A stretch of 39,997 nt of DNA, from positions 1 through 39,997 of the forward strand of contig JAGGUL010000104.1 of assembly GCA_021158525.1 (NCBI GenBank). The letters run 5' to 3'. Under the pieces are notes generated by a model. It saw nothing but the letters and a program-made list of their open reading frames with translations. It had not been told where the DNA came from and made no database searches. The first letter of the stretch is position 1, and each line of letters starts with the position of its first letter. Positions 13,398 to 35,128 of the stretch are shown here, one piece after another. This stretch comes from Candidatus Hydrothermota bacterium. Its GTDB lineage: Bacteria > Hydrothermota > Hydrothermia > B15-G9 > DRBW01. The position numbers and the translations under genes were made by a program.

Positions 13398-14791
13398 GAT
13401 GCCGGCAGTCCCCGCGAGATCAGGCCAGCCCTGTTAATCAACTTCCGGCGCTCCATGGCGGCTTTCCTCGCAAGAGTCTTCAGATTTATTTTTCTCTCCT
13501 CGTCGGTCGTGATGTCGGAAGAGCTGCCGTGTTTCCTGTAGCGATACAAAACGCGGTGTATCCTGACGAGATCGTGGCTCTCCACAGCCTTCAGTACCAT
13601 ATCGTAATCCTCGCCGAAATCGGGGAAATTCCGTTCGTCGAAAAGCCCGAGTTTCAGAAGCACGCTCCTCCTCCAGATCCTCAAAGCGCCTGCTCCCTCG
13701 GTCCTCAGGATATTATTCCTGTCAAATTCGAGATGCCTGACCACGTCCAGTTCATCTATCGCAAAACCCTCTTCATCTATAACCTCATAATACGAAACTC
13801 CGAGAGCTGCATCGGGGTGTCGCTCCATAACGTCAAGAGCCACCTCCAGTGCATCCGGCGTGTATTCGTCGTCTGAATCGAGCTGAGCCACATACCGCCC
13901 CCGTGAGTTGAGCACACATAAATTGAGGGCTCTCGCCAGGGTTCCCCCCTCGACAAAAATAGGCCTAATCCTTTCGTCCTTCTCCGCATAATCGGCGATT
14001 ATCTCCCTGGTGCCGTCGGTCGAGCCCGTGTCGGTTATCACCGCCTCGAAGTCGACGAAAGTCTGCCTCATCAGGCTGTCAAGGGCTCTCCCAATGAACC
14101 TGGCGCGGTTTCTAACGGGTATGATGATGGATATGGGGATCTCGCCGCCCACATCAAATACCCTCCGGACTCCGCCAGAAAGAAAGGCACCCCTCCGTTT
14201 GAGCATGTCCTTAAAGGCCTTCTCCACCTCCCTCTCGAGATCAGGGGGATACTTGAGATAACTGAAAGAGGCGAGGAGCCCACGCCCCATTTCGCCTCCC
14301 CGAACCTCGTAGAGAGCTCTGGGGACCCGAACGATCTCCCCTCCTCTCTCCTCCAGACGAAGCCTGAAATCGTAAAGATATGCCCTTTTGAATTCAGACC
14401 TGAGCCCGAGCTCCAGGAGCACACTTTTTTTCACGCCGAGGACATGGCCCAGGGGGAACCTCTCCGTGATGTCCCCGGGATAATCATAGAGCCTTCTCAA
14501 ACTTCTGCCCTCGAGGAAATCGCTGTAAACGAGGGCCGGAGTCGGCCTCCTCATGGCATCGACGAAATGCCTCTCAAACCCCTCCAGGAACCTGACGGGC
14601 CTGAGGAGGAGAAGCAGATACTCCCCGCTCGCCCTTCTGGCCGCCTCGATTATAAAGGGAACATCCTCCCTGACTTCTATAACGTTAACGTTGCTAAAAT
14701 CGGCCCTCTCCCGGGTGAAAATCTCGGTGTTCTCGGAATTGATCGCGCCGGAGGGAAGGAACTTCCCTCCGGCGCAGATAAGGCTGATCAT
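13394..14791 (-). CDS. Glycosyltransferase family 2 protein with a degenerate N-terminal half
   Basis: A 465-residue protein. The C-terminal half (from about residue 216) is a GT-A family 2 glycosyltransferase: PISIIIPVRNRARFIGRALDSL, then TDTGSTDGT, the metal-binding DSD at 305-307 (AQLDSDDEYTPDA), and the acceptor-side FGEDYDMVLKA. The N-terminal about 200 residues look like a second GT-A-like fold (ASGEYLLLLLRPVRFLEGF, LVYSDFLEG, PLGHVLGVKKSVLLELG) without a clear DXD, so it may be inactive. It probably adds a sugar to a cell-envelope glycan; donor and acceptor are unknown. Its ATG overlaps the htrA stop by one base, so it is the last gene of the TPR-clpC-bamA-htrA operon. Confidence 0.87.
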   Translation of the reverse strand: MISLICAGGKFLPSGAINSENTEIFTRERADFSNVNVIEVREDVPFIIEAARRASGEYLLLLLRPVRFLEGFERHFVDAMRRPTPALVYSDFLEGRSLRRLYDYPGDITERFPLGHVLGVKKSVLLELGLRSEFKRAYLYDFRLRLEERGGEIVRVPRALYEVRGGEMGRGLLASFSYLKYPPDLEREVEKAFKDMLKRRGAFLSGGVRRVFDVGGEIPISIIIPVRNRARFIGRALDSLMRQTFVDFEAVITDTGSTDGTREIIADYAEKDERIRPIFVEGGTLARALNLCVLNSRGRYVAQLDSDDEYTPDALEVALDVMERHPDAALGVSYYEVIDEEGFAIDELDVVRHLEFDRNNILRTEGAGALRIWRRSVLLKLGLFDERNFPDFGEDYDMVLKAVESHDLVRIHRVLYRYRKHGSSSDITTDEERKINLKTLARKAAMERRKLINRAGLISRGLPAS

Positions 14792-16338
14792 CAGTCCTCA
14801 GGCCTTATGGCTATTATCCTGGGAATTCCCTGCCTCTTTATGTAGAAAATGATGGGTCTTTTCCTGCTCTTGTATTTCTTCTTAGCCTTCTTGAAATCGT
14901 CGAGAGCGTTGACCTTCACTCCCCCCACCTTGTAGATGACATCGCCTGTCCTTATCCCGGCATCGGCGGCTTTGCCCTCCAGATCGACATCCACCACGAC
15001 GACTCCGGCATCTTCCTTAATGCCAAGGGACTTGGCTCTGTCAGACCTGACATCCACCACTTTCATCCCGAGCCAGGAGACCTCCCCCTTCCCCACTTTC
15101 TCTTCCTCACTTTCCTCCTTCTTAGCTGTCACCTGTTCGCCCGGGTATTCGGCCAGTTCCAGCTTTACTTCCTTTTCCTTTCCATCTGGTTTTTTAATTT
15201 TGAGAGTCACCTCGGTTCCGGGAGGCGTCTCAGCCACCATGAGTCTGAGGGACTGAACGTCTTTGACGGGCTTCCCGTTGAACTCCACTATGAGGTCGCC
15301 GTCCTCGAGGCCCGCTTTCTCCGCGGGGGTTCCCTTCTCCACCTGCACAACGAGCGCTCCCATGGGCTTTTCAAGGCCGTAAGCTTCAGCGATATCGCCG
15401 CTCACATCCTGGATTCTGACCCCTATGTATCCCCTGACAACCTTCCCCTTCTCGATCAGCTGTCCGGCTATGTACTTCGCCAGGTTTATGGGGATCGCAA
15501 AGCCGATACCTATAAAACCTCCCGACGGGGTGGTTATGGCCGTGTTTATGCCTATTACCTCTCCCCTTATGTTGATAAGGGGACCTCCGGAGTTGCCGAA
15601 ATTGATGGCGGCGTCGGTCTGAATGAAATCCTGATAATCGGGACCCTCGGGAAGGTTGATGCCAGACCTGCCCTTCGCGCTTATCACGCCAACAGTCACC
15701 GTCCTGTCGAGACCGAAGGGATTGCCTATGGCAATGGCCCAGTCGCCCACCTCTATCTTATCTGAATCCCCGAGCTTCGCCACGGGGAGCTCCCTGTCAC
15801 TCTTTATCTTGAGCACGGCGATGTCGGTTCGGGGGTCTTTTCCCACGAGCTCCACGTTTTTTCCCTTGTACTCGCTCTTGTCCGAGAGCCTGACAATTAT
15901 CTTATCGGCCCCCTTAACCACGTGGTTGTTGGTCAGGATAAAGTATTCATCGCCCTTTCGATCGAAAATAAAGCCGGACCCCAGAACATGGGCCTTTCTC
16001 TCGGGCATGCTGAAAGGCTCAGATTCGAAAAATTTCTTAAAAAATTCTTCGAAAGGACCCTTGTACTCAAAGCGGAAGGGAGCTTCCTCTTCCCTGACTA
16101 TTCTCTCGGCGGCTATGTTGACCACAGCGGGCATCACTTCCTTTGTGACCTTGACGAAGGGAGAATGGAATCCATCGGCAGTTAAACCGGAAGGAAACTC
16201 AGATTCCGCAAATTCCTTGATTTTCTCGGAGGTCTGCGCCTGAGTTACCGGCAGAAGGCCCAACCTGGCAGTCAGGACAAGACCAGAGATCAGCCCCAAA
16301 GCAAAGAGCAACACAGCCCATTTCCAGGTCTTCCTCAT
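14791..16338 (-). CDS. htrA: Periplasmic serine protease/chaperone, Do (HtrA/DegP) family
   Basis: A 515-residue protein with an N-terminal signal or anchor helix (WAVLLFALGLISGLVLTA). The trypsin-like catalytic triad is His139 (TNNHVVKG), Asp172 (RTDIAVLK) and Ser250 (NFGNSGGPL). PDZ domains follow at about 300-390 (YIGVRIQDV onward) and 420-510 (WLGMKVVDV onward), separated by a Glu/Lys-rich linker. It degrades or refolds misfolded envelope proteins. The gene sits 15 bases after bamA, with AAGGAGGTGAGG as ribosome-binding site, so outer-membrane insertion and its quality control are made from one message. Length and layout are normal for DegP. Confidence 0.96.
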   Translation of the reverse strand: MRKTWKWAVLLFALGLISGLVLTARLGLLPVTQAQTSEKIKEFAESEFPSGLTADGFHSPFVKVTKEVMPAVVNIAAERIVREEEAPFRFEYKGPFEEFFKKFFESEPFSMPERKAHVLGSGFIFDRKGDEYFILTNNHVVKGADKIIVRLSDKSEYKGKNVELVGKDPRTDIAVLKIKSDRELPVAKLGDSDKIEVGDWAIAIGNPFGLDRTVTVGVISAKGRSGINLPEGPDYQDFIQTDAAINFGNSGGPLINIRGEVIGINTAITTPSGGFIGIGFAIPINLAKYIAGQLIEKGKVVRGYIGVRIQDVSGDIAEAYGLEKPMGALVVQVEKGTPAEKAGLEDGDLIVEFNGKPVKDVQSLRLMVAETPPGTEVTLKIKKPDGKEKEVKLELAEYPGEQVTAKKEESEEEKVGKGEVSWLGMKVVDVRSDRAKSLGIKEDAGVVVVDVDLEGKAADAGIRTGDVIYKVGGVKVNALDDFKKAKKKYKSRKRPIIFYIKRQGIPRIIAIRPED

Positions 16339-16353
16339 GAGAACCTCACCTCC

Positions 16354-18621
16354 TTAGAAGCTTGTTCCGATTTGAAACTGGGTCATCCATTTGTTCCCCA
16401 GTTTATCAAAGCCATAAGACTCATATATCCCCAGCACTCCCACCATGGGAATCTCTATGTTAAATCCCACACCTGCGCCTTTCTTATAGCTGCCGGGTTT
16501 GAAGTCGACAAATCTGTCCGCCGTGAACCCGGCGTCGAAGAACCCCACTACGTAGAAGCCCTCGGCAGGCCTGTACCTCAGCTCGAGGGTAACCGTGTTG
16601 AAAACCCGCCCGCCTATAAGGGCTCCGTTTCTATAGATCCCTATGCTCCTGTCGTCATATCCTCTAACCCCGTAGTAATCCGTTCCCCCGAGGAGAAAAC
16701 GCTTGTACAGGGGAACTTCGATGGAACTGGAGAGGCTTTCGAGGTGGCCCAACCGGGTCCTTCCGTGAAGTATGACCTTCTCACCTATCAATGGCCTGAA
16801 GGTACCTGCTTCAAGGAGCTGGCGGAAGTAATGAGCTTCTCCTCCCAGAATGCCGCCCGCCTTCTCCACGGAATAAGAAATCCTGGTCCCCTTTATGGGG
16901 TTGAATATCCTGTCCCGGGAATCATGGGTCAGGCTGAAGTTAGCCCTCGACGTGAGCTGAGGTCCCTCTCCCCAGTAGGCGAGATAGTTCTCCAGTTCTG
17001 CCGAGACATCCTTCAGCTCGACTTTTTCCAGAGTATAGCCCAGGGAAAGGTGCCAGTAGTCGTTCCAGAGCCTCTTCGAATAGAAAATCGACCCTCCCTT
17101 CTGTATCTCTTTATATTCCGGATAATAGTGGCCGAGGTTGTGAACGTCGAAGCCCAGTGACTGAGGCTTCCCGAAAAGCCAGGGCTCGGTGAAGGCAAAC
17201 CTGAAATTCCTCACCTTCTTGCCGAAATCCACCGTGATGTTCACCGACTGCCCCCTGCCGAACATGTTGGGCTGGTTAAAATTGAGGTTCCCAAAAAAGC
17301 CTTCTGCCTGAGAGTAGCTGACTCCTCCGCCTATCTGCCCGGTGCTCTTCTCCTCAACGTGAAAAACCAGGTCGACAAAACTGGTGTCCTCCGTCTGGCG
17401 AAAGTTAACCCCCACGTTGCCGAAATAATTGAGATACATCAGGTCTCTCTGGCTCTTGATCAGTTTCCCGGTCGAAAAATATTCGCCCGGATATATATCC
17501 AGCTCCCTCCTGATGACCGATTCCCTGGTCTTCGTGTTTCCGGCTATGTCTATCAGCCTCACCTTCACGCGGTTCCCCTCATAGATTCTGAATTCGATGT
17601 CGACGATCGAGTCCTCTCTGACCTTTTCAAGCGGCACCGCATGAGCATAAATGTAGCCCGAATCGCCATAGAGGACCTGTATCGCGGTGAGAGCTCGCTC
17701 CAACCTGGTCTGACTGTGAGCCTGAGGGTCCCAGCTTTCTCCCTTGTATATCAGGGTTATGGCTTCCCAGAGCCCCGGTTTCTCCTCAACGAGGACCACT
17801 TTTTCGGCGAGAAAGTCGTCGGAATAAACAGTGTTGCCCTCAAAAGAAACTTCTCCGAATACATACCTCGGCCCCTCCTCGATTTTGACGTAGAGGTAGA
17901 TCCCGTCATCCCTGTATTCCACGCCGCTGGAATCGATCCTGGCCTCGGGATGACCGTGGTCGGCGTAATAACGCACTATCCTGTCCAGGTCCTCTTCCCA
18001 CTGATCCGGGTCAAACTTCCCGCTTCGGAGGAAGGACTTTTCTTTGTTTTTCATTATCGATTTTATCTTCTTCGTGCTCACCGCCCTGTTTCCCTCCACG
18101 ATTATCTTCTTTATCAGGAACTTCCTGTTCTCGTGAATATCGAGCGTGAGTATCGCCTCACCGTTTTTATCGGGCTCCGAGAAGCGATAATCGACACTAA
18201 CTTTAAGATACCCCTTCCTCCTGTAAAGTTCCTTTATCTTATGTTTCGCCCTGAAAAGGTTGTAGTCGGAGAGGGGCGTGCCCGGCGGAAGGTCGAGGCT
18301 GTCCCTGAGTTCTCCCGTTCCGATCTTCTTGTTCCCCTTTATGACCAGTTTCTTGAGGCGCGGGTTCTCATGCAATTTCACGATGAGCTTAAGGGAAGAA
18401 TCGGGATTATATCTGCCGTAAACCCGAACGCTGTCGAAATACTCCGATCCCATGAGGGATTTGATGGCGTTGCGGATCGAGAGGGCAGAGACCTCTTCTC
18501 TGCCGGAGAGGCCCATGCGGAAGACGACAAAATCGGGCGAAGACCACCTTAATCCCTGAACTTCTATACCGGAGATGTTTATCCCGCCTGATAGGAGAAA
18601 GAACAGGATGAGATGGGTCAA
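16354..18621 (-). CDS. bamA: Outer membrane assembly factor BamA (Omp85)
   Basis: A 755-residue Omp85 protein that inserts beta-barrel proteins into the outer membrane. A short signal peptide (LILFFLLSGG) is followed by about five POTRA domains (GIEVQG, KLVIKGNKKIGTGEL, IKKIIVEGNRAVSTKKI, FGEVSFEGNTVYSDDF, RLIDIAGNTKTRESVI), then a 16-strand-type barrel. The lid-loop motif GVRGYDD lies near residue 655 and the C-terminus ends in Phe (QIGTSF), as expected for an outer-membrane barrel. The start is TTG at 18621, supported by GGAGG exactly six bases upstream, formed by the last codons of clpC, whose stop is three bases upstream. Its presence shows the cell is diderm. Confidence 0.95.
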   Translation of the reverse strand: MTHLILFFLLSGGINISGIEVQGLRWSSPDFVVFRMGLSGREEVSALSIRNAIKSLMGSEYFDSVRVYGRYNPDSSLKLIVKLHENPRLKKLVIKGNKKIGTGELRDSLDLPPGTPLSDYNLFRAKHKIKELYRRKGYLKVSVDYRFSEPDKNGEAILTLDIHENRKFLIKKIIVEGNRAVSTKKIKSIMKNKEKSFLRSGKFDPDQWEEDLDRIVRYYADHGHPEARIDSSGVEYRDDGIYLYVKIEEGPRYVFGEVSFEGNTVYSDDFLAEKVVLVEEKPGLWEAITLIYKGESWDPQAHSQTRLERALTAIQVLYGDSGYIYAHAVPLEKVREDSIVDIEFRIYEGNRVKVRLIDIAGNTKTRESVIRRELDIYPGEYFSTGKLIKSQRDLMYLNYFGNVGVNFRQTEDTSFVDLVFHVEEKSTGQIGGGVSYSQAEGFFGNLNFNQPNMFGRGQSVNITVDFGKKVRNFRFAFTEPWLFGKPQSLGFDVHNLGHYYPEYKEIQKGGSIFYSKRLWNDYWHLSLGYTLEKVELKDVSAELENYLAYWGEGPQLTSRANFSLTHDSRDRIFNPIKGTRISYSVEKAGGILGGEAHYFRQLLEAGTFRPLIGEKVILHGRTRLGHLESLSSSIEVPLYKRFLLGGTDYYGVRGYDDRSIGIYRNGALIGGRVFNTVTLELRYRPAEGFYVVGFFDAGFTADRFVDFKPGSYKKGAGVGFNIEIPMVGVLGIYESYGFDKLGNKWMTQFQIGTSF

Positions 18622-18623
18622 CC

Positions 18624-21071
18624 TCAGCCTCCGGCAGAGCTCTCCACGACAGTTTCCTCGGACTTAAATTTTATCCTGTCCTTCTCGAGAAGAACGATCA
18701 CTTTCTCCCCCTCTTTGATGTCGCCCCTGAGAATCGCCTCGGAAAGCGGCTCCTCCAGTTCCTTCCTGATTACCCTCCTCAACGGCCTCGCGCCGTATTC
18801 GGGATCATAACCCATCTCCACCAGCTTTTCCTTGGCCTCTGGCGTCAGCTCGAGTTCAATGGACTTCTCGGCGAGCCTCTTCCTGAGGTCGCGCAGCATG
18901 ATCTCGATGATCTGGCCGATCTGCTTTTTCTCGAGAGGCCTGAATATGATAACCTCGTCGATCCTGTTCAAAAATTCGGGAGGCGCTATCTTCTTGAGCT
19001 CAGCGTGGAGGAAGTCCTTCATCTTCTCGTAATCCTGAAGGTTCTCCTCGCTGCTCTTGAAGCCCACTCCCTTGGCCCTCTTGATGAATTTGGTTCCTAT
19101 ATTGGAAGTGAGTATTATAACGGTGTTCCTGAAACTCACTTTCCTTCCAAAGCTGTCGGTCAAAACTCCTTCCTCCAGGATCTGGAGGAGGATATGAAAG
19201 ACATCGGGATGGGCCTTCTCAAATTCGTCAAAAAGCACGACCGAATAGGGTTTTCTCCTGACCTTTTCGGTGAGCTGCCCCCCTTCCTCGTAGCCGACAT
19301 AACCGGGAGGCGCTCCGATGAGTTTAGACACGTTGAACCTCTCCATGTACTCGGACATGTCGAGCTCCACGAGGGCCTCCTCGTCGCCGAAGAGGAATTC
19401 GGCGAGAGCTTTCGCCAGCTCGGTCTTCCCCACGCCGGTGGGACCGAGGAATATGAAAGAACCGATGGGTCTCCGCGGGTCCTTTATGCCCGCCCGAGAA
19501 CGGCGAATGGCCTTGGAAACTGCCTCGATCGCCTCCCTCTGTCCCACGACCCTTTTCTCGAGCTCCTCTTCCATCTTCAGCAATTTCGCCTGCTCCCTCT
19601 CCTCGAGGCGGAAAAGCGGGATGCCCGTCCATCTTGAGACGACCTCCGCCACCTGCTCAGCAGTGACGGTCAGCCCATCGTCCTTCGCCTGCAACATCCT
19701 CTTTCTCTCCGCTATCTTCCTCTCAAGCTCCTTCTCTCTGTCTCTATATTTGGCCGCTTTCTCGAATTCCTGCTTTGAGATGGCCTCCTCTTTAAGTTCC
19801 CTGACCCTCTCGAGCTCAACCTTCTGCTGCTCGAGGATCTCGTCGGAGGCCGAGGAGCTCAATTTCACCTTGGCGCCCGCCTCATCAAGGACATCGATGG
19901 CCTTATCGGGAAGATACCTGTCAGCAATGTACCTGTCGGCGAGCTTCGCCGCAGCTTCGATGGCGTCGTCGGTGTACTTGACGCCGTGGAATATCTCGTA
20001 TTTCTCCTTGAGCCCCCTGAGGATCTCTATGGTCTCATCCACCGTGGGGGGATCGACCATCACGGGCTGGAACCTCCTCTCCAGGGCACCGTCTTTCTCT
20101 ATGTGCTTTCTGTACTCTTCCAGCGTGGTAGCGCCGATGACGTGGATGAGGCCGCGCGCCAGTGCGGGTTTCAAGATATTAGATGCATCAATGGCACCTT
20201 CGGCCGCACCAGCCCCTATCACGGTATGAAGCTCATCTATGAAAAGTATGACATCCGGCGATTTGGAGGCCTCCGTGACTATTGCCTTAAGCCTCTCCTC
20301 GAACTGGCCTCTGTATTTTGTGCCCGCCACGACCGCGGCCAGATCCAGGGCCAGAATCCTCTTGTCGAGAAGAGCATCGGGGACCTTGCCCTCGACGATC
20401 CTCTGGGCCAGACCTTCCACAATGGCCGTCTTGCCCACTCCGGGCTCCCCGATGAGAACCGGGTTGTTCTTCTTCCTCCTCGAAAGTATCTGAATGACCC
20501 TCTCTATTTCCCTCTCGCGACCTATCACCGGATCGAGCTTGTTCTCCCTGGCCATCTGGGTCAGGTCTATTGAGAAGTTCTCGAGGGTCCTGGTCTGGCT
20601 TTTGGTGCTCTTGGCCGGTGCTCCCTCGGGCTTCCCGAGGAGCCTCAAAGCCTCCTCCCTGACCATTTCAAGTTCTATCCCCAGGTTCATGAGGATCTGG
20701 GCAGCGATCCCCTTCCGTTCCCTGAGGATACCGAGGAGAATGTGCTCAGTCCCTATGTAATTGTGCCCCAGCCTCTTTGACTCTTCAAAGGCGTAATTCA
20801 TCGCCCTTCGGGCAGAGGCATTCAGGGGGATCTCACCGACAGAAATGGGTCCCCTGCCTGGAGGCACTGCTTCCTCCACAGCCTGTCGAAGTTCTGACAG
20901 GTCCAGGCCAAGATTGGTAAGCACCATAGCGGCTACTCCCTCGCCGATGCGGGAGAGCCCGAGGAGAAGGTGCTCCGTACCGATATAGTTATGGAGCAGC
21001 CTGATGGCCTCCTCGCGGGCGAGGTAAAGCACCCTCTTGGCCCTTTCAGTGAACCTGTCGTTTAAGAACAC
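18624..21071 (-). CDS. clpC: ATP-dependent Clp protease ATP-binding subunit ClpC
   Basis: An 815-residue Hsp100 unfoldase. Two N-terminal Clp repeats ([12 protein letters not shown] and [12 protein letters not shown], about residues 28 and 104) precede AAA module 1 (Walker A GEPGVGKT at 208-215). A UVR-type middle region ([21 protein letters not shown]) follows, then AAA module 2 (Walker A GPTGVGKT near 542-549) and the small C-terminal domain with ARPLRRVI. With ClpP it degrades cytosolic proteins. The start is GTG behind GGGAGGTGAT. There is no ctsR/mcsAB neighbour as in Firmicutes; instead it lies between a TPR membrane protein and bamA. Confidence 0.96.
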
Positions 21072-29548: not shown

Positions 29549-29860
29549 TCAGATGTTATAGCCATAAGATCGAAGTACCCTCTTCCCCTCTTCGGAGATC
29601 CTGTCCACAGTCCAGGGAGGATCCCAGACGATTTCCACTTCCGCGTCCTCAACGCCCTCGAGTTTGAGAAGGCGATCCTTTGCCTGCATCGCTATGGCGC
29701 CAGCGAGCGGGCAACCGCGGGCCGTGAGCGTCATCTTAACGTGTACCTTGTTCCCCTCGATCTCTATGCCGTAAATAAGCCCGAGGTCCACTATGTTGAT
29801 GGGGATCTCGGGATCAAATACCTCTTTAAGTGCCTCTATTACTCTTTCCTTGGTCAGCAT
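29549..29860 (-). CDS. MIP18/DUF59 family iron-sulfur assembly protein (SufT/PaaD-like)
   Basis: A 103-residue protein from ATG 29860, chosen because GGAGG stands just before it and the promoter lies behind it. DUF59 features are [20 protein letters not shown] at about residues 15-32 and the single Cys in TARGCPLAG (Cys50), followed by [14 protein letters not shown]. Proteins of this family help mature Fe-S clusters; similar stand-alone genes are often called 'metal-sulfur cluster biosynthetic enzyme'. It is monocistronic here, tail-to-tail with rodA. Confidence 0.9.
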
Positions 29861-29880
29861 ATTTCCTCCTTCTTCCGTGC

Positions 29881-29909
29881 ATTTTACCAGAGAAAACATG
29901 ACATGTCAA
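29881..29909 (-). promoter_or_regulatory. Promoter of the DUF59 gene
   Basis: Minus-strand TTGACA (29909-29904), 17 bases, TAAAAT (29886-29881). Start near 29874 gives a 14-nt leader with the GGAGG site. Confidence 0.8.
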
Positions 29910-29965
29910 GATATCGGCCTATCTTTGAAGCGATGTCCTCCATCTTTATAATCTGAAAAAGTGAC

Positions 29966-29994
29966 TTGACAAACTAACTAAGGAAAAGTATTAA
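29966..29994 (+). promoter_or_regulatory. Promoter of the KaiC-like cluster, predicted leaderless
   Basis: TTGACA (29966-29971), 17 bases, TATTAA (29989-29994). The -10 end at 29994 puts +1 near 30001, two bases before ATG 30003, and no Shine-Dalgarno sequence is correctly spaced before that ATG. A second -10 candidate, TAATAT (29992-29997), gives the same conclusion. Confidence 0.6.
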
Positions 29995-30002
29995 TATACG
30001 CT

Positions 30003-30866
30003 ATGGAAAACCTGATAAAAGAAAGTATAAAAAATCTTAGCGAAGTGGGAAAAAAGGCGCCGAGGCTCGAGGGGGTGCCCTCGGGCGTTGAGGGATTGGA
30101 CGACCTCTTTTTCACGTCGAAAATCCAGGATGGCAGGGCGATCCGGATGCCGCTCGGCGGAATACCGCGCTACTCCGTCGTCAACCTGACCGGGATCTCC
30201 GATACGGGGAAATCCCTCATGGCCGAACAGTTCGCCGTCAAACAAGCAGCGCGTGGGAAGAGGGTGGCTTTCGTGACGGTGGAAACTCCTGCCACATTCC
30301 TCTCAGTGGGGCTCAAGGAAAGGGCCTTTGCCATGGGCTTCCAGGAGACCGAGGAGATCGAGAAGAACATATACATCATCGACGCAGCCAGCTATTCGGC
30401 CCTCAGAGAAGACATAAAGGTCCTCCTCGACACCCTGGCCTACGCGATAAAAACCTACAGGATCGATTTCACCGTCATCGACTCCATCACTGGCCTCTAC
30501 GAGGCTAAGGAGATGCTCGCCAGGACCTTCGTCAGGCAGGTTTACAACTTCCTCAAAAAATGGTATCAGACAGCCCTCCTCGTCTCCCAGAAACGCTCAG
30601 GGCACGAAGAGCTGTCGGCAGAAGCCGCCGGTGGATATGCGGTGTCCCACATCGTCGATTGCACAATGGTCCTGTCGAAACGCATAATCCAGAGTCAGTA
30701 CGACGAACGGATCTACAAAAAACCGATCGGAGAGCTCATCAGGTTCTTCAGGATCGACGGCTGCAGGATGTGCGGCCACGACACCGATACCCATCTCATG
30801 GAGATCACCGAACTCGGCCTGGTCAAAATAGAAAAGAGCCTGAAGGAATACCTCAAAAAACAATAA
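30003..30866 (+). CDS. KaiC/RadA-like single-domain RecA ATPase with C-terminal Cys/His cluster
   Basis: A 287-residue RecA-superfamily ATPase of the KaiC group. Walker A is GISDTGKS at 64-71, the catalytic Glu region is VTVETPAT (Glu94), and Walker B ends at Asp160 (FTVIDSITG). A loop 2-like segment GHEELSAEAAGGYAVSHIVD precedes a probable metal site: Cys254, Cys257, His259 and His264 (CRMCGHDTDTH). It has one KaiC domain, not two, and none of the phosphorylation-linked circadian context. From memory it matches the 'KaiC domain protein, AF_0795 family' seen in thermophilic archaea and bacteria, which sits next to a small regulator as it does here. It is the first gene of a four-gene operon. 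A regulatory or DNA-transaction role is likely; the actual function is unknown. Confidence 0.85.
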   Translation: MENLIKESIKNLSEVGKKAPRLEGVPSGVEGLDDLFFTSKIQDGRAIRMPLGGIPRYSVVNLTGISDTGKSLMAEQFAVKQAARGKRVAFVTVETPATFLSVGLKERAFAMGFQETEEIEKNIYIIDAASYSALREDIKVLLDTLAYAIKTYRIDFTVIDSITGLYEAKEMLARTFVRQVYNFLKKWYQTALLVSQKRSGHEELSAEAAGGYAVSHIVDCTMVLSKRIIQSQYDERIYKKPIGELIRFFRIDGCRMCGHDTDTHLMEITELGLVKIEKSLKEYLKKQ

Positions 30867-30879
30867 AGGAGGTGGGAAG

Positions 30880-31500
30880 ATGCCGGTCTTACGTCCTGAT
30901 GAAATTCAGCAGTACGACATCGATACAATAGCCATCAGGGTTTTTCTGAAGGCCCTCGAGATCATAGGAGGGCCGAGAAAGCTCATTGAGCTCAGAAACC
31001 TCACGTGGATCACCTCGCTGATGGAGGCCGCCTATGCCGTTGTCCTTGCCGATCAGTCCCTCAAAACCGAGGACGAGATAGCTGAATTCCTGGGTCTGAC
31101 GAGACAGACCGTGAGAAACATCCTCAGGGCCGATCCGGAGCTCGTAATGCAGAAACTCGAAGGGGAACTCCAGGAAAAAACGCCGCGAGCCCACACGGCT
31201 GGCGGTCTGGCCAAACTCGCCCACAAGGAGATCAAAGAGGGCAGAGATTACCTCAATTTCTTCATTTACGCCCTTGAAAGTGCATCGGAGAGCCTGGGCA
31301 TATACTGGCCCATTGAAGTGCTCAGAAAGATAAAGGGAATGGACTTCCCTGTCGACAAAGAGGAGCTCGCAGAGAGGCTCAGAGGCCTCTCGATAAAGAA
31401 CGTCCCTTCAGAGGAGATCCTGGAAAAACTCGACTATCCGGTGAAGAGCCCCAGCGATCTCTTGCACAAGATCAGAAAAAGCCTCGAAGGAGGAGGATAA
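30880..31500 (+). CDS. HTH regulator of the 'near-KaiC' type
   Basis: A 206-residue protein. A helix-turn-helix is visible at about residues 63-83 (TEDEIAEFLGLTRQTVRNIL), resembling sigma-region-4/LuxR-type HTHs. The rest is helical, with AHKEIKEGRDYLNFFIYALES and a C-terminal KNVPSEEILEKLDYPVKSPSDLLHKI. It appears to be the partner family (probable regulatory domain found beside KaiC-domain proteins) known from thermophile genomes; this is recalled, not searched. It follows the ATPase by 13 bases with AAAGGAGGTG, so stoichiometric co-expression is expected. It probably binds DNA and is controlled by the ATPase. Confidence 0.75.
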   Translation: MPVLRPDEIQQYDIDTIAIRVFLKALEIIGGPRKLIELRNLTWITSLMEAAYAVVLADQSLKTEDEIAEFLGLTRQTVRNILRADPELVMQKLEGELQEKTPRAHTAGGLAKLAHKEIKEGRDYLNFFIYALESASESLGIYWPIEVLRKIKGMDFPVDKEELAERLRGLSIKNVPSEEILEKLDYPVKSPSDLLHKIRKSLEGGG

Positions 31501-33225
31501 ATGGTAATACACAAAAGGCATGCCCAATTACTAAAGATCGCCGCAGAAAAGGGCATAAAATTCAGCGACGTGGAGGGCGATGACATAAGCTATCTCGATC
31601 AGCTCGATAAAATGGGCCTTATCGAACTCGACGAGGAGGGAATCTTCGCCCCCACTTATTCGGGCGCTCTCCTCATCGAGACCATAGAGAGTGCCCCGGA
31701 GTTCGGAGGCCTTCCCCTCGAGAAGTGGGACGAGGACTTCCGTTTCATCGGTTCCGAGATAATCTCAATGCTCCACACCGCTTATCTCACCCAGAGTCGC
31801 ACCGGTCCTGTTTTCGAGAAGGAGCTCGGGATAAGAGGCTTCGCGAAAGACGGCAAGCTCACCCCCATCGCTCACAACGTGATCGAACTTTTCGAGAAGG
31901 CACACCCCCGGCTCGTCATCTCCAGGGAACTCGCCGATTACCTGCGGAAGATGCCGCCGGGTCCTGGCTACAGGAAACACCTTCCAGCGGAAAAACATGT
32001 GCTCCTGGAACTCGAGGGAATGAGACTTCTGTCTTTCAGCATCCCGAAGAGCGATATCTTTTCGCTCTCCGGACTCGGCCAGCAGCTGAGGGCCGCCATA
32101 ATCCACAGCGCTCCGGCTTACGAGGTCATCATAGAAGAGAGAATATTGAGGGCTTTCCTCAGGGGCGATTACCGGGAACTCCCGGAATTTAGCAGGCTGG
32201 TTGCCATGGCATTCGTCAAGCCCGACGGCGAACTTCTGACGGCGGGACGACATCTGATCCCAGCTGCCCGGATTTACTTCGAGGGCCCTATAACACTGAA
32301 TCCATCCGTTGACCTACAGCTTTTCGACATCTATGCGCTGAAATGCCTGGAAGAGCTCGAGAAAAATGGGGAAAGGCCGTCCGAAGAGAGGGTAGCCGAT
32401 CTCATAAAAAAGAAGTTCAAGCTCGAGAGCATCAACGTGAGGAAACATCTCTACAGGCTCGTCGCCGCGAGGCTGGCTGACATCTGCTTCAGCGGAGATG
32501 AAGAGTGCTTCAGGCTCACCGATTGGGGCAGAGAGGCATGCGAAGACCAGGTGAAGAGGGAAAGGCCCATCCCGGCCCATGCCGTGAAATCCATAACGCT
32601 GACCAGGATGGAATACACAGCGCCTGAATACGAATGGTTCACAGCGGGAGAAAAGGCCGGCCTGACGGGCAACGGTTACCCGTCGAAGTCCGGGCTTCTC
32701 TATGCCAGGATAGCTTCTAACTCGCGCAGGATACCATTCATAGACCGAACTGCTGCCAATGCCTTAAGGCTCATTCCCCTGACCAGAGGCATCTACCTCG
32801 AGGAACTCAGGGCTCTCTGGAAGGAAAGCGGGAACCTTGACGATATCCTATCTCACCTCGACGCAAGCCTCATCGTGGACCTTCTGCCCGGGGAAGCCCT
32901 CGTGCTGACCGAAGTCGGCAAGCTGATCAAAAGGGCCATCCAGGGCTGTCCTGAGTCCACACAGTATCCTATCACCCCGGCTCTGGCTCTCCTCGTGAGC
33001 AAACTCGGTGATCACCTGGAGGAGGGAGCCGAGTTCACGGAAGCCCTGAAAAGGACGGAGAAAGAGCTTGGATTTCCTTCAAAATACGTGGAAAACCTGG
33101 TCCTTGCGGCCAGACGATGCCGCTATTTATCGGCAAGAAATCTGACACAGAACGGAAAATACCTCAGACAGGCCGTCAAACTCCTCACGGAGATCAGGGA
33201 GATCTGGGAGGAGATCATGGTCTAA
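31501..33225 (+). CDS. DUF505-like protein built from tandem winged-helix units
   Basis: A 574-residue soluble protein, likely DUF505 (moderate confidence). Reading it by eye, about seven segments end in a wing-like strand plus helix with a small residue in the turn: about 48-60 (FAPTYSGALL), 119-130 (LTPIAHNVIEL), 187-197 (FSLSGLGQQL), 245-256 (LLTAGRHLIP), 337-346 (FRLTDWGREA), 467-477 (LVLTEVGKLI) and 547-557 (NLTQNGKYLRQ), each preceded by helix-rich HTH-like sequence. No catalytic motif is seen. The ATG directly follows the stop of the HTH gene (GGAGGAGG inside that gene), so translation is coupled. A large DNA- or protein-binding scaffold for the KaiC ATPase is a reasonable inference. 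Confidence 0.62.
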   Translation: MVIHKRHAQLLKIAAEKGIKFSDVEGDDISYLDQLDKMGLIELDEEGIFAPTYSGALLIETIESAPEFGGLPLEKWDEDFRFIGSEIISMLHTAYLTQSRTGPVFEKELGIRGFAKDGKLTPIAHNVIELFEKAHPRLVISRELADYLRKMPPGPGYRKHLPAEKHVLLELEGMRLLSFSIPKSDIFSLSGLGQQLRAAIIHSAPAYEVIIEERILRAFLRGDYRELPEFSRLVAMAFVKPDGELLTAGRHLIPAARIYFEGPITLNPSVDLQLFDIYALKCLEELEKNGERPSEERVADLIKKKFKLESINVRKHLYRLVAARLADICFSGDEECFRLTDWGREACEDQVKRERPIPAHAVKSITLTRMEYTAPEYEWFTAGEKAGLTGNGYPSKSGLLYARIASNSRRIPFIDRTAANALRLIPLTRGIYLEELRALWKESGNLDDILSHLDASLIVDLLPGEALVLTEVGKLIKRAIQGCPESTQYPITPALALLVSKLGDHLEEGAEFTEALKRTEKELGFPSKYVENLVLAARRCRYLSARNLTQNGKYLRQAVKLLTEIREIWEEIMV

Positions 33226-33238
33226 AAGGAGGAGGAAG

Positions 33239-34093
33239 ATGTACGATCCCATCTCGTTGCTTTTTCTAATCATATTTCTGTTCGGGCTTCTCTATCCTCA
33301 GATTCAACACAAGACGCTCCTCGGCAATAGGCTTGCCCTGATCAAAAAACTCGAGAAGAAGAGGGGCACGAGGGTCATCACCATGATCCACCGACAGGAA
33401 AAGATAGGCCTCTTCGGCATACCTTTCTTCAAGTTCATAGACATAGAGGATTCCGAGGAGATACTCAGGGCGATCAGGCTGACCCCGAAGGACATCCCAA
33501 TAGACCTCGTCCTGCACACCCCCGGCGGGCTCGTCCTCGCCTCGACCCAGATCGCAAAGGCCCTCAAGGACCATCCGGCGAAAACCACCGTCATCATACC
33601 CCATTACGCCATGAGCGGCGGGACCCTGATAGCACTCTCCGCCGACGAGATCATAATGGATCCCCACGCGGTTCTGGGCCCGGTGGATCCACAGCTGGCC
33701 GACTCGGAGGGAGGAGCCGTCCCCGCCGCGTCCATATTGAAGGCCGTCGAGGTGAAGGGTCCCGAAAACGTCGAGGACGAAACCCTCATGAAGGCCGATG
33801 TGGCCGAAAAAGCCATAACACAGGTCAAACAGATCGTTTATGAACTCCTCGAGGGCAAGATGGACAACGAAAAGAGGGAAGAGATCGCGGAAAGACTGAG
33901 CCGTGGCCACTGGACCCACGATTATCCTATCACCCTGGAGGAAGCGAAAAAATTGGGCCTTAAAATATCGACCGATGTCCCCGAAGAGGTCTATACCCTG
34001 ATGAGCATGTATCCTCAGAGCTCCCAGAGAAGGCCGAGCGTGGAATTCATACCCATCCCTTATCAGTCTCCTCGGGGCTCGAACCAGAGTTAA
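33239..34093 (+). CDS. Membrane-anchored ClpP-class serine protease (SDH/SppA-like)
   Basis: A 284-residue protein with an N-terminal membrane helix (SLLFLIIFLFGLLYP, about 6-20) and a crotonase/ClpP-fold domain. Motifs are HTPGGLVLAST (93-103) forming the oxyanion strand, the nucleophile Ser126 in YAMSGGT, and the following DEIIMDPHAVLGPVDPQ block, which together indicate the 'serine dehydrogenase proteinase'/SppA-like family PF01972. It probably cleaves membrane or secreted peptides. It starts 13 bases after the DUF505-like gene with AAGGAGGAGG and so belongs to the KaiC-like operon, an unusual partner for such an ATPase. Confidence 0.84.
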   Translation: MYDPISLLFLIIFLFGLLYPQIQHKTLLGNRLALIKKLEKKRGTRVITMIHRQEKIGLFGIPFFKFIDIEDSEEILRAIRLTPKDIPIDLVLHTPGGLVLASTQIAKALKDHPAKTTVIIPHYAMSGGTLIALSADEIIMDPHAVLGPVDPQLADSEGGAVPAASILKAVEVKGPENVEDETLMKADVAEKAITQVKQIVYELLEGKMDNEKREEIAERLSRGHWTHDYPITLEEAKKLGLKISTDVPEEVYTLMSMYPQSSQRRPSVEFIPIPYQSPRGSNQS

Positions 34094-34156: not shown

Positions 34157-35128
34157 ATGCCCCACAAGGGATACGAATTTTTAAAAGCTCTCAAGAGGGG
34201 CGAGCTCGCGTCCCACCTCTACGTGCTGGCAGGACGGGAAGAGCTTATGATGGAGAGCGCCCTGAAGATCCTCGAGGAAAAACTCGCTCCCTGCGACAGG
34301 AAGGTATATTACATCGACGAGATGACAGTCCAGGAGTTGCTCCAATCCTCCTCTACCGGCGACCTCTTCGGCAGTTCCCGGAAGATCACGGTGATCAAGG
34401 GGATAGAGAAATCCAGGAAAAAGTCGAAAAAACAGCTGCTGGAGCTTTTCCAGAGCCTATCCGGCGGTTTTTTCGATGTCGATAACCCCCTGGTCATCTA
34501 CATCAGGACCTCCGGAATGAAGGAGAGGAAGAGGAACGAACTCATGAGAAACCTGCGCGACATTGAAAAAACCGCCGAGACCGAATTCCTCAAGGGCGCC
34601 CTCTTTGTCGAATTTCCTCTCCTGGTGGAGGACAGGAACACCGCTCACCTGTTCCGAAAATGGATCAAAAACTGGTTCGAGAGGAAGGGGATAGCCCTCG
34701 ACGGGGAAACACTGGAAAAACTCAAGTCTTCTCTTCCCCCTGAGCTCAAAGAGGCACAGGCCGAGATGAAAAAACTGCTTCTCTACACAGACGGAGCCCC
34801 TCCGTCGCCCGAAGATGTCGAAGAGGTAGTTTCGAAAAGCGAGGAGGTACTGATAAAAGATCTCTCCCGTCTGATTCAAAAAGGAGACAATCGTTTCGCC
34901 GCTTTAACCCTCAAAAAGCTTCTCGACAGCGGCGTCAGGCCGAACCACATTCTCGCCTATCTGCTCGTGGTCCTGGCGCGTCACCTCAGAGACAACGGGC
35001 GTAAGGCCGCTTTTAGATCAGCTCTGAAAAAGGCGGAGAGAGCCGTGGAACTGGAGGGAAGACTGAAATCCCAGCCAGTCTCCGATTCCCTGCTCCTTCT
35101 TCTTCTATCGGAGGAACTTTCTCGATGA
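34157..35128 (+). CDS. holA: DNA polymerase III subunit delta
   Basis: A 323-residue clamp-loader subunit that opens the beta clamp. The order of segments is typical: the N-terminal AAA-like LYVLAGREELMMESALKIL, YYIDEMTVQELLQSSSTGDLFGSSRKITVI (the loop resembling LFG-x-x-R-x-V that touches the clamp), then LVIYIRTSG, and a C-terminal collar with LIKDLSRLIQKGDNRFAALTLKKLLDSGVRPNHILAYLL. Walker A is absent, as normal for delta. It overlaps the next gene by 4 nt (ATGA). Confidence 0.9.
   Translation: MPHKGYEFLKALKRGELASHLYVLAGREELMMESALKILEEKLAPCDRKVYYIDEMTVQELLQSSSTGDLFGSSRKITVIKGIEKSRKKSKKQLLELFQSLSGGFFDVDNPLVIYIRTSGMKERKRNELMRNLRDIEKTAETEFLKGALFVEFPLLVEDRNTAHLFRKWIKNWFERKGIALDGETLEKLKSSLPPELKEAQAEMKKLLLYTDGAPPSPEDVEEVVSKSEEVLIKDLSRLIQKGDNRFAALTLKKLLDSGVRPNHILAYLLVVLARHLRDNGRKAAFRSALKKAERAVELEGRLKSQPVSDSLLLLLLSEELSR

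Follow-up and report, generated by a model that had tools for sequence, protein, structure and literature searches.

A four-gene operon encoding a KaiC-family ATPase, a TIGR03879 regulator, a DUF505 protein and a predicted membrane-anchored protease in WOR-3/Hydrothermota bacteria: a possible regulatory and protein-quality-control module

The window analysed here, a stretch of 39,997 nucleotides, is contig C2 of a 2.0 Mb genome (97% complete) from an uncultured and probably heat-loving bacterium of the Hydrothermota. It carries four consecutive genes, kai, hth, duf and sdh (Table 1), the products of which are respectively a KaiC-family ATPase, a 'near KaiC' regulator, a DUF505 protein and a predicted membrane-anchored protease. 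An earlier note on this DNA had described the four as an operon behind a single promoter, and its description of the layout holds good: all four are intact open reading frames on the plus strand at the coordinates it gave, separated by gaps of 13, 0 and 13 bp, with strong Shine–Dalgarno sequences at hth, duf and sdh (AAGGAGG, AAGGAGG and AAAGGAGGAGG, respectively). The promoter that we assign, TTGACA-17-TATTAA, lies within a block (TTGACAA, a 17-nucleotide spacer and TATTNATA) that is retained directly 5′ of the kai ATG in six genomes from two families, f1 and f2 (families, genomes and loci in our collection are designated f, G and L), the remaining kai upstream DNA having diverged among these six. 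A second promoter-scan match, TTGAAG-16-TATAAT at 29925–29952, is kept within the genus only and was discarded in favour of the conserved one. Because the −10 box ends 8 nucleotides 5′ of the ATG and no good Shine–Dalgarno sequence precedes kai, the kai mRNA is probably leaderless from its predicted transcription start. By strand, gap length and single lead promoter kai–hth–duf–sdh is an operon, with co-transcription predicted.

The family identities proposed in the earlier note were checked with the TIGR03878, TIGR03879, PF04458 and PF01972 models, and all four proteins score above the curated cut-offs. In a profile search the kai product matches TIGR03878 (thermo_KaiC_2) at 440 bits (cut-off 232.2) along the whole of the model (positions 1–259 of 259). 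It possesses a P-loop (GISDTGKS, amino acids 64–71), a glutamate at position 94 and a Walker B motif (VIDS, amino acids 158–161); across a 15-row alignment the P-loop residues and E94 are invariant and the motifs overall are invariant or nearly so. Its score sets it apart from circadian KaiC (29.8 bits against a TIGR02655 cut-off of 546, with one KaiC domain instead of two), from ArlH (36.8 bits, cut-off 215) and from RadB. The domain is RecA-like, and both RadB and RecA are found among its weaker matches. The nearest solved structures identified by sequence search (KaiC, PH0284 and SSO2452) are of low similarity.

The hth product, encoded 13 bp after kai, matches TIGR03879 (near_KaiC_dom) over amino acids 27–121 (116.8 bits, cut-off 65.1) and possesses a C-terminal DUF2795 domain (amino acids 142–184; 27.7 bits, cut-off 25) that is absent from some orthologues. 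The protein is mostly helical, as is its N-terminal domain, and contains a conserved helix-turn-helix (HTH) segment at around amino acids 61–86, the best weak match to which is HTH_23; sequence-specific DNA binding is predicted. The structure model is of moderate quality, with a predicted local distance difference test (pLDDT) score of 81 and a predicted template modelling (pTM) score of 0.60. As a fold search with this model returned no match with E < 0.001, we make no claim as to the fold; the weak matches seen are of HTH type only and the best include the HTH regions of ParB and Noc, with E of around 1 and the HTH alone covered. A sequence search for solved structures gave nothing useful for this protein.

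Evidence for the nature of the duf product comes from both sequence and structure prediction. The protein scores 367.7 bits against DUF505 (PF04458, cut-off 28.7) in two stretches that take in both halves of the model, and its predicted structure is confident (pLDDT 91.6, pTM 0.89). By our own count from the secondary-structure pattern the model comprises approximately eight winged-helix units, in line with the multi-winged-helix architecture suggested in the earlier note. Single units match AF1382, STIV F93, PadR and KAT6A with a Foldseek probability of 1.00 and TMt values of 0.66–0.75 (E > 0.1), and Foldseek returned no whole-chain match. By this structural criterion, applied to a model, the duf product is a tandem winged-helix protein; the model thus supplies a structural description of DUF505, a family for which a sequence search found no solved structure. 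In a phylogenetic tree, the operon DUF505 proteins form a single clade with the copy from the f3 duf–sdh pair and solo copies from Aminicenantes, apart from 46 others, and constitute a shorter, diverged DUF505 subfamily.

The sdh product belongs to the Ser/Asp/His (SDH) family of ClpP-like proteases, scoring 442 bits against PF01972 (cut-off 31.3) and 419 bits against NF047768 (cut-off 250). The motif HYAMSGGT is invariant in a 22-row alignment, together with S126, H122, D136, D150 and H227. The protein is a predicted serine protease in which S126 is assigned as the catalytic serine, whilst the catalytic aspartate may be D136 or D150 and the histidine H122 or H227. A single N-terminal hydrophobic helix (at around amino acids 6–20) is followed by a stretch rich in lysine and arginine and, by the positive-inside rule, the catalytic domain is predicted to be cytosolic, so that it could meet the kai, hth and duf proteins. 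The operonic SDH proteins fall within one clade. No solved structure was found for sdh by sequence search.

Comparison with related genomes indicates that these four genes are very probably functionally linked. The order kai–hth–duf–sdh is found in four families, all from the class of the window's genome: f1, f2, f6 (genus g18) and f11. It is complete at L039 (f1), L040 and L042 (f2), L045 (f6) and L058 and L118 (f11), and is present in part at L041 and in G008 and G116, where contig ends cut it. The same genes are also found in other arrangements. In f4 the order is kai–sdh–hth (L015, L108), whilst f7 has hth–AIM24–sdh on one contig and sdh–kai at the end of another, from which we infer an order of hth–AIM24–sdh–kai across the contig break. 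In f9, kai–AIM24–hth (L046, L104, L234) occurs with duf and sdh elsewhere, and f3 has duf and sdh side by side on a single contig, kai and hth being found at other sites. Joint function is better supported by such varied orders than it would be by a single inherited block. The earlier note had named a lack of conserved adjacency between the first two genes and the last two as grounds for rejecting its proposal; such linkage recurs both in the four families and in these permuted orders. As a separate observation, kai in f3 is followed by genes for a conserved membrane-type protein of 71–72 amino acids and for a protein of 202–229 amino acids that has hydrophobic segments near its N terminus and matches no Pfam family (L050 1175–2016; L051 5084–5908).

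The genes also tend to occur in the same genomes. Of 120 genomes from the phylum, 29 gave a strong match for kai, 30 for hth, 22 for DUF505 and 31 for sdh; kai and hth are found together in 28, kai and sdh in 26 and duf and sdh in 20, and no genome with DUF505 lacks both kai and hth. Fisher tests at the genus level give p values of 2e-6 to 2e-15, although these ignore phylogeny and most carriers belong to one class. Reverse gyrase follows a similar pattern: of the 31 genomes with kai or hth, 23 have a match above the cut-off, as do 5 of the 89 others. In genus g7, reverse gyrase, kai, hth and duf are all present in G017 and G025 and all absent from G012 and G022, which are 99–100% complete.

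Scanning contigs for relatives of kai, we found 267 and kept 80 loci. The hth gene is present in 34 of these, almost always adjoining kai or one gene off, and the hth-bearing loci include metagenome-assembled genomes (MAGs) labelled as DPANN archaea, Aminicenantes, Campylobacterota, Desulfofervidaceae and Dictyoglomaceae. At nine Aquificota loci (L061, at 1079–1294, and eight others) a gene encoding a 72 amino acid XRE-type HTH protein lies beside the TIGR03878 kai, possibly as a non-homologous replacement of TIGR03879. A survey of DUF505 neighbours in Aquificota, Bacteroidota and Acidobacteriota yielded a single pairing and nothing further: in the Bacteroidota genome G123, hth lies directly upstream of DUF505 (L141 4119–6822, minus strand), with kai and sdh on other contigs. 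That G123 is the only DUF505 genome among 148 sampled from its phylum suggests that the pair was acquired by transfer. In a sample of 149 genomes from the Acidobacteriota phylum, to which G143 belongs, kai is found in five, DUF505 in three and both in two. Taking the loci inside and outside the class together, kai–hth, hth–duf, duf–sdh and kai–sdh are each adjacent somewhere without the full set.

Further clues to function come from other genes that lie beside or between the four. One encodes an Hsp100 protein of around 1000 amino acids whose best match, below the equivalog cut-off, is ClpB, with a Clp_N segment in the L045 protein. In f8 (L094) the Hsp100 gene lies 3′ of hth with an ATGA overlap, in f25 (L171) it lies 5′ of sdh with a TAATG overlap, and f6 and f11 have it in divergent orientation to the kai gene of the four-gene operon. 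At all three f6 and f11 loci, the intergenic region contains the sequence GAATTGTCAAG-N-TTGA(C/T)AATTC, a palindrome (GAATTGTCAAG-N-CTTGACAATTC; Table 1) that overlaps both −35 boxes and is a candidate shared operator. Since 6 of the 11 arm bases are needed by the −35 box, this interpretation rests on the other bases and on conservation in two families. A search for CIRCE sites (controlling inverted repeat of chaperone expression) in 24 kai loci found none. The gene for AIM24 (PF01987/TIGR00266) is inserted between core genes, kai and hth in f9 and hth and sdh in f7, and its product is possibly a fifth component of the module. Finally, away from these operons, sdh is found directly 3′ of a rhomboid protease gene at seven loci (L154, L155, L156, L157, L158, L160 and L232), in lineages that include Desulfofervidaceae, Calditrichota, Aminicenantes and the WOR-3 family f29; this is a second partnership of the SDH protease.

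Table 1. Positions of the four genes, their promoter and features linked to them in the window and in related loci
Feature	Location	Strand	Length	Description
kai	window 30003–30866	+	287 aa	Single-domain KaiC-family ATPase, TIGR03878
hth	window 30880–31500	+	206 aa	TIGR03879 'near KaiC' regulator with C-terminal DUF2795
duf	window 31501–33225	+	574 aa	DUF505, approximately eight tandem winged-helix units (model)
sdh	window 33239–34093	+	284 aa	Predicted membrane-anchored Ser/Asp/His ClpP-like protease
Operon promoter	window 29966–29994	+		−35 TTGACA 29966–29971, 17-nt spacer, −10 TATTAA 29989–29994
Palindrome	L045 5458–5481			Between divergent Hsp100 and kai; candidate operator
Palindrome	L058 9917–9939			As above
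Palindrome	L118 9933–9955			As above
AIM24 gene	L046 6390–7061			PF01987/TIGR00266
AIM24 gene	L216 769–1452	−		PF01987/TIGR00266
AIM24 gene	L234 7735–8430			PF01987/TIGR00266
HtrA/DegP-type protease, BamA and Hsp100 genes in a row	window 14791–21071	−	Hsp100, 815 aa	Envelope-stress-type; ~9 kb upstream of the operon

Two genes flanking the operon in the window were considered as members and excluded because their adjacency to it is limited to the genus. The first, holA (at 34157, 63 bp after sdh), follows sdh in the sister genome only. The second, divergent from the operon at 29549–29899 on the minus strand, is a SufT/DUF59-type gene of Fe–S assembly with a TTGACA-17-TAAAAT promoter of its own; its product scores below the TIGR02945 cut-off.

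Taken together, the rearranged linkage to a membrane protease, DUF505, Hsp100 and AIM24 and the correlation with reverse gyrase lead us to the hypothesis that the kai–hth pair acts in heat and membrane protein quality control. In the scheme that we envisage, the KaiC ATPase would assemble, in an ATP-dependent manner, into a ring to which the TIGR03879/DUF2795 regulator binds, and would switch DNA binding by the regulator in response to ATP state or load, with the DUF505 tandem winged-helix protein as a second, larger partner that would bind DNA or the transcription machinery. The membrane-anchored, cytosol-facing SDH protease would cut either membrane proteins damaged by heat or the regulator, and through this proteolytic step damage to membrane or protein would be reported to transcription at high temperature. 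The parts of this proposal do not stand equally firm. We lean slightly towards a heat or proteostasis role for the four genes, and consider the chances to be evenly balanced that, in heat-loving WOR-3/Hydrothermota bacteria, they make up a module for regulation and protein quality control. The full picture of a new heat-stress system, in which Hsp100 and the KaiC ring, cytosolic membrane-anchored protease, TIGR03879 switch and DUF505 protein would be coordinated by a palindromic divergent promoter that they share, is offered tentatively, and the specific circuit of ATPase, regulator and protease is more doubtful again.

A number of observations weigh against this proposal. The earlier note had proposed tabulating adjacency of all four genes across thermophilic bacteria and archaea; this is found in one class, but outside it kai and hth are usually alone together and duf and sdh are mostly solo, the hth–duf pair of the one Bacteroidota genome being the sole addition. 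The DUF505 genes of Aquificota and Campylobacterota are solo, encode a longer form (~620–660 amino acids) and have no core gene as a neighbour; sdh is likewise solo in these two groups and elsewhere, and the kai genes of Aquificota lack a TIGR03879 neighbour. Two nearly complete genomes have kai–hth and duf without sdh, and three have sdh without kai or hth. Nor does Hsp100 adjoin the operon in the window, where the nearest copy is ~9 kb off. The correlation with reverse gyrase is imperfect and clade-structured, and the window's own genome gave no reverse-gyrase match over the cut-off.

Four other explanations must be considered. The first, which we think unlikely, is that the genes form a DNA-maintenance module in which KaiC acts like the RadA and RadB recombinases, hth and DUF505 are DNA-binding partners in chromosome organisation or repair at high temperature and the protease turns over DNA-bound complexes. 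The RecA-like domain of KaiC, with RadB and RecA among its weaker matches, is in keeping with such a role, as are the two partners of DNA-binding type, the ParB and Noc regions among the regulator's best structural matches and the correlation with reverse gyrase. The ParB matches are weak and cover the HTH alone, however, and repair and recombination genes are not recurrent beside kai–hth in the 80 loci, the genes actually linked being those for Hsp100, AIM24 and a membrane protease.

Rather improbable, in our estimation, is that kai–hth is simply a known pair to which DUF505 and sdh became joined once by accident, the block then being inherited. Because the operonic DUF505 and SDH proteins each fall in one clade, the four-gene order could go back to a single founding event, and four-gene adjacency is indeed confined to one class. 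Yet hitch-hiking would be expected to decay to unlinked genes and not to new orders, whereas distinct rearrangements rejoin the same genes (kai–sdh–hth, hth–AIM24–sdh, duf–sdh and, in another phylum, hth–duf) and the presence of the genes is correlated. We give the same low probability to the SDH protease being a target only, such that KaiC–hth, with DUF505, conditionally switches transcription of envelope proteases and proteolysis lies outside sensing. The final position of sdh in the operon, and its pairing elsewhere with rhomboid or Hsp100, are what would be expected of an effector; the kai–sdh–hth order, with sdh between ATPase and regulator, is not readily explained in this way. On sequence alone this possibility is hard to tell apart from the one that we favour. 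A surface-structure or pilus-type signalling module like that of ArlH/FlaH is highly improbable: the window KaiC shows homology to the ArlH and KaiC_arch families (37–67 bits) but with scores far below the cut-offs, and pilus, archaellum and secretion genes are not recurrent neighbours in the surveyed kai loci, the lack of such genomic context counting against this explanation as it does against plain recombination.

If the quality-control proposal is correct, it would provide partners and a role for a pair of thermophile genes that previously had neither assigned, and would make the module a candidate for a KaiC-based pathway by which protein damage is signalled to transcription. Experiments in cultured relatives seem feasible, as kai or kai–hth is carried by MAGs of groups with cultured members, including Hydrogenobacter and other Aquificaceae, Nitratiruptor and Dictyoglomaceae. 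Each of the families, and the kai–hth pair itself, is already known, but the assembled module appears to be undescribed in the literature searched: our search, which did not extend to a 2017 survey of KaiC proteins, found no paper that joins DUF505 with KaiC or describes the four-gene combination, and only incidental mentions of DUF505 and DUF2795.

Several known systems invite comparison. The sdh protein is related by sequence to SppA, NfeD1b and ClpP models and shares the theme of an N-terminal membrane anchor, but scores below the equivalog cut-offs for both SppA (32.6 bits against 155 for TIGR00706) and SohB and belongs instead to the SDH family NF047768. In Firmicutes, CtsR–McsAB–ClpC is a heat-shock operon. 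It resembles the arrangement at L094, where a small HTH regulator gene is predicted to be co-transcribed with that for a Clp-class Hsp100, but here the regulator is of an unrelated family and a KaiC ATPase stands in place of McsAB. The 2017 survey by Makarova, Galperin and Koonin (mBio 8:e01959-17, as cited in PMC6393860) reportedly presents KaiC-like ATPases as archaeal signal-transduction hubs; these share with our locus a single-domain KaiC beside an HTH protein, whereas here the host is a bacterium and a membrane protease and a tandem winged-helix partner are present. In P. furiosus, PF1931 (KaiC) and PF1932 (a predicted regulator), which have consecutive locus numbers, are Phr targets and are strongly induced by heat shock (PMC10746257). 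The likeness lies in the pairing of a KaiC protein with a predicted regulator under consecutive locus numbers, heat induction being a feature of P. furiosus and no link to DUF505 or SDH being shown for the pair. PF1931 is presumably a member of the sister KaiC family UPF0273/TIGR03877, and the two genes therefore serve as an analogy only. The TIGR03878/TIGR03879 pair of thermophiles, to which the family records assign no function, is also close: both proteins of the window exceed the respective cut-offs and their genes are adjacent, and the pair is extended here by DUF505 and a membrane protease and, in relatives, by links to Hsp100 and AIM24.

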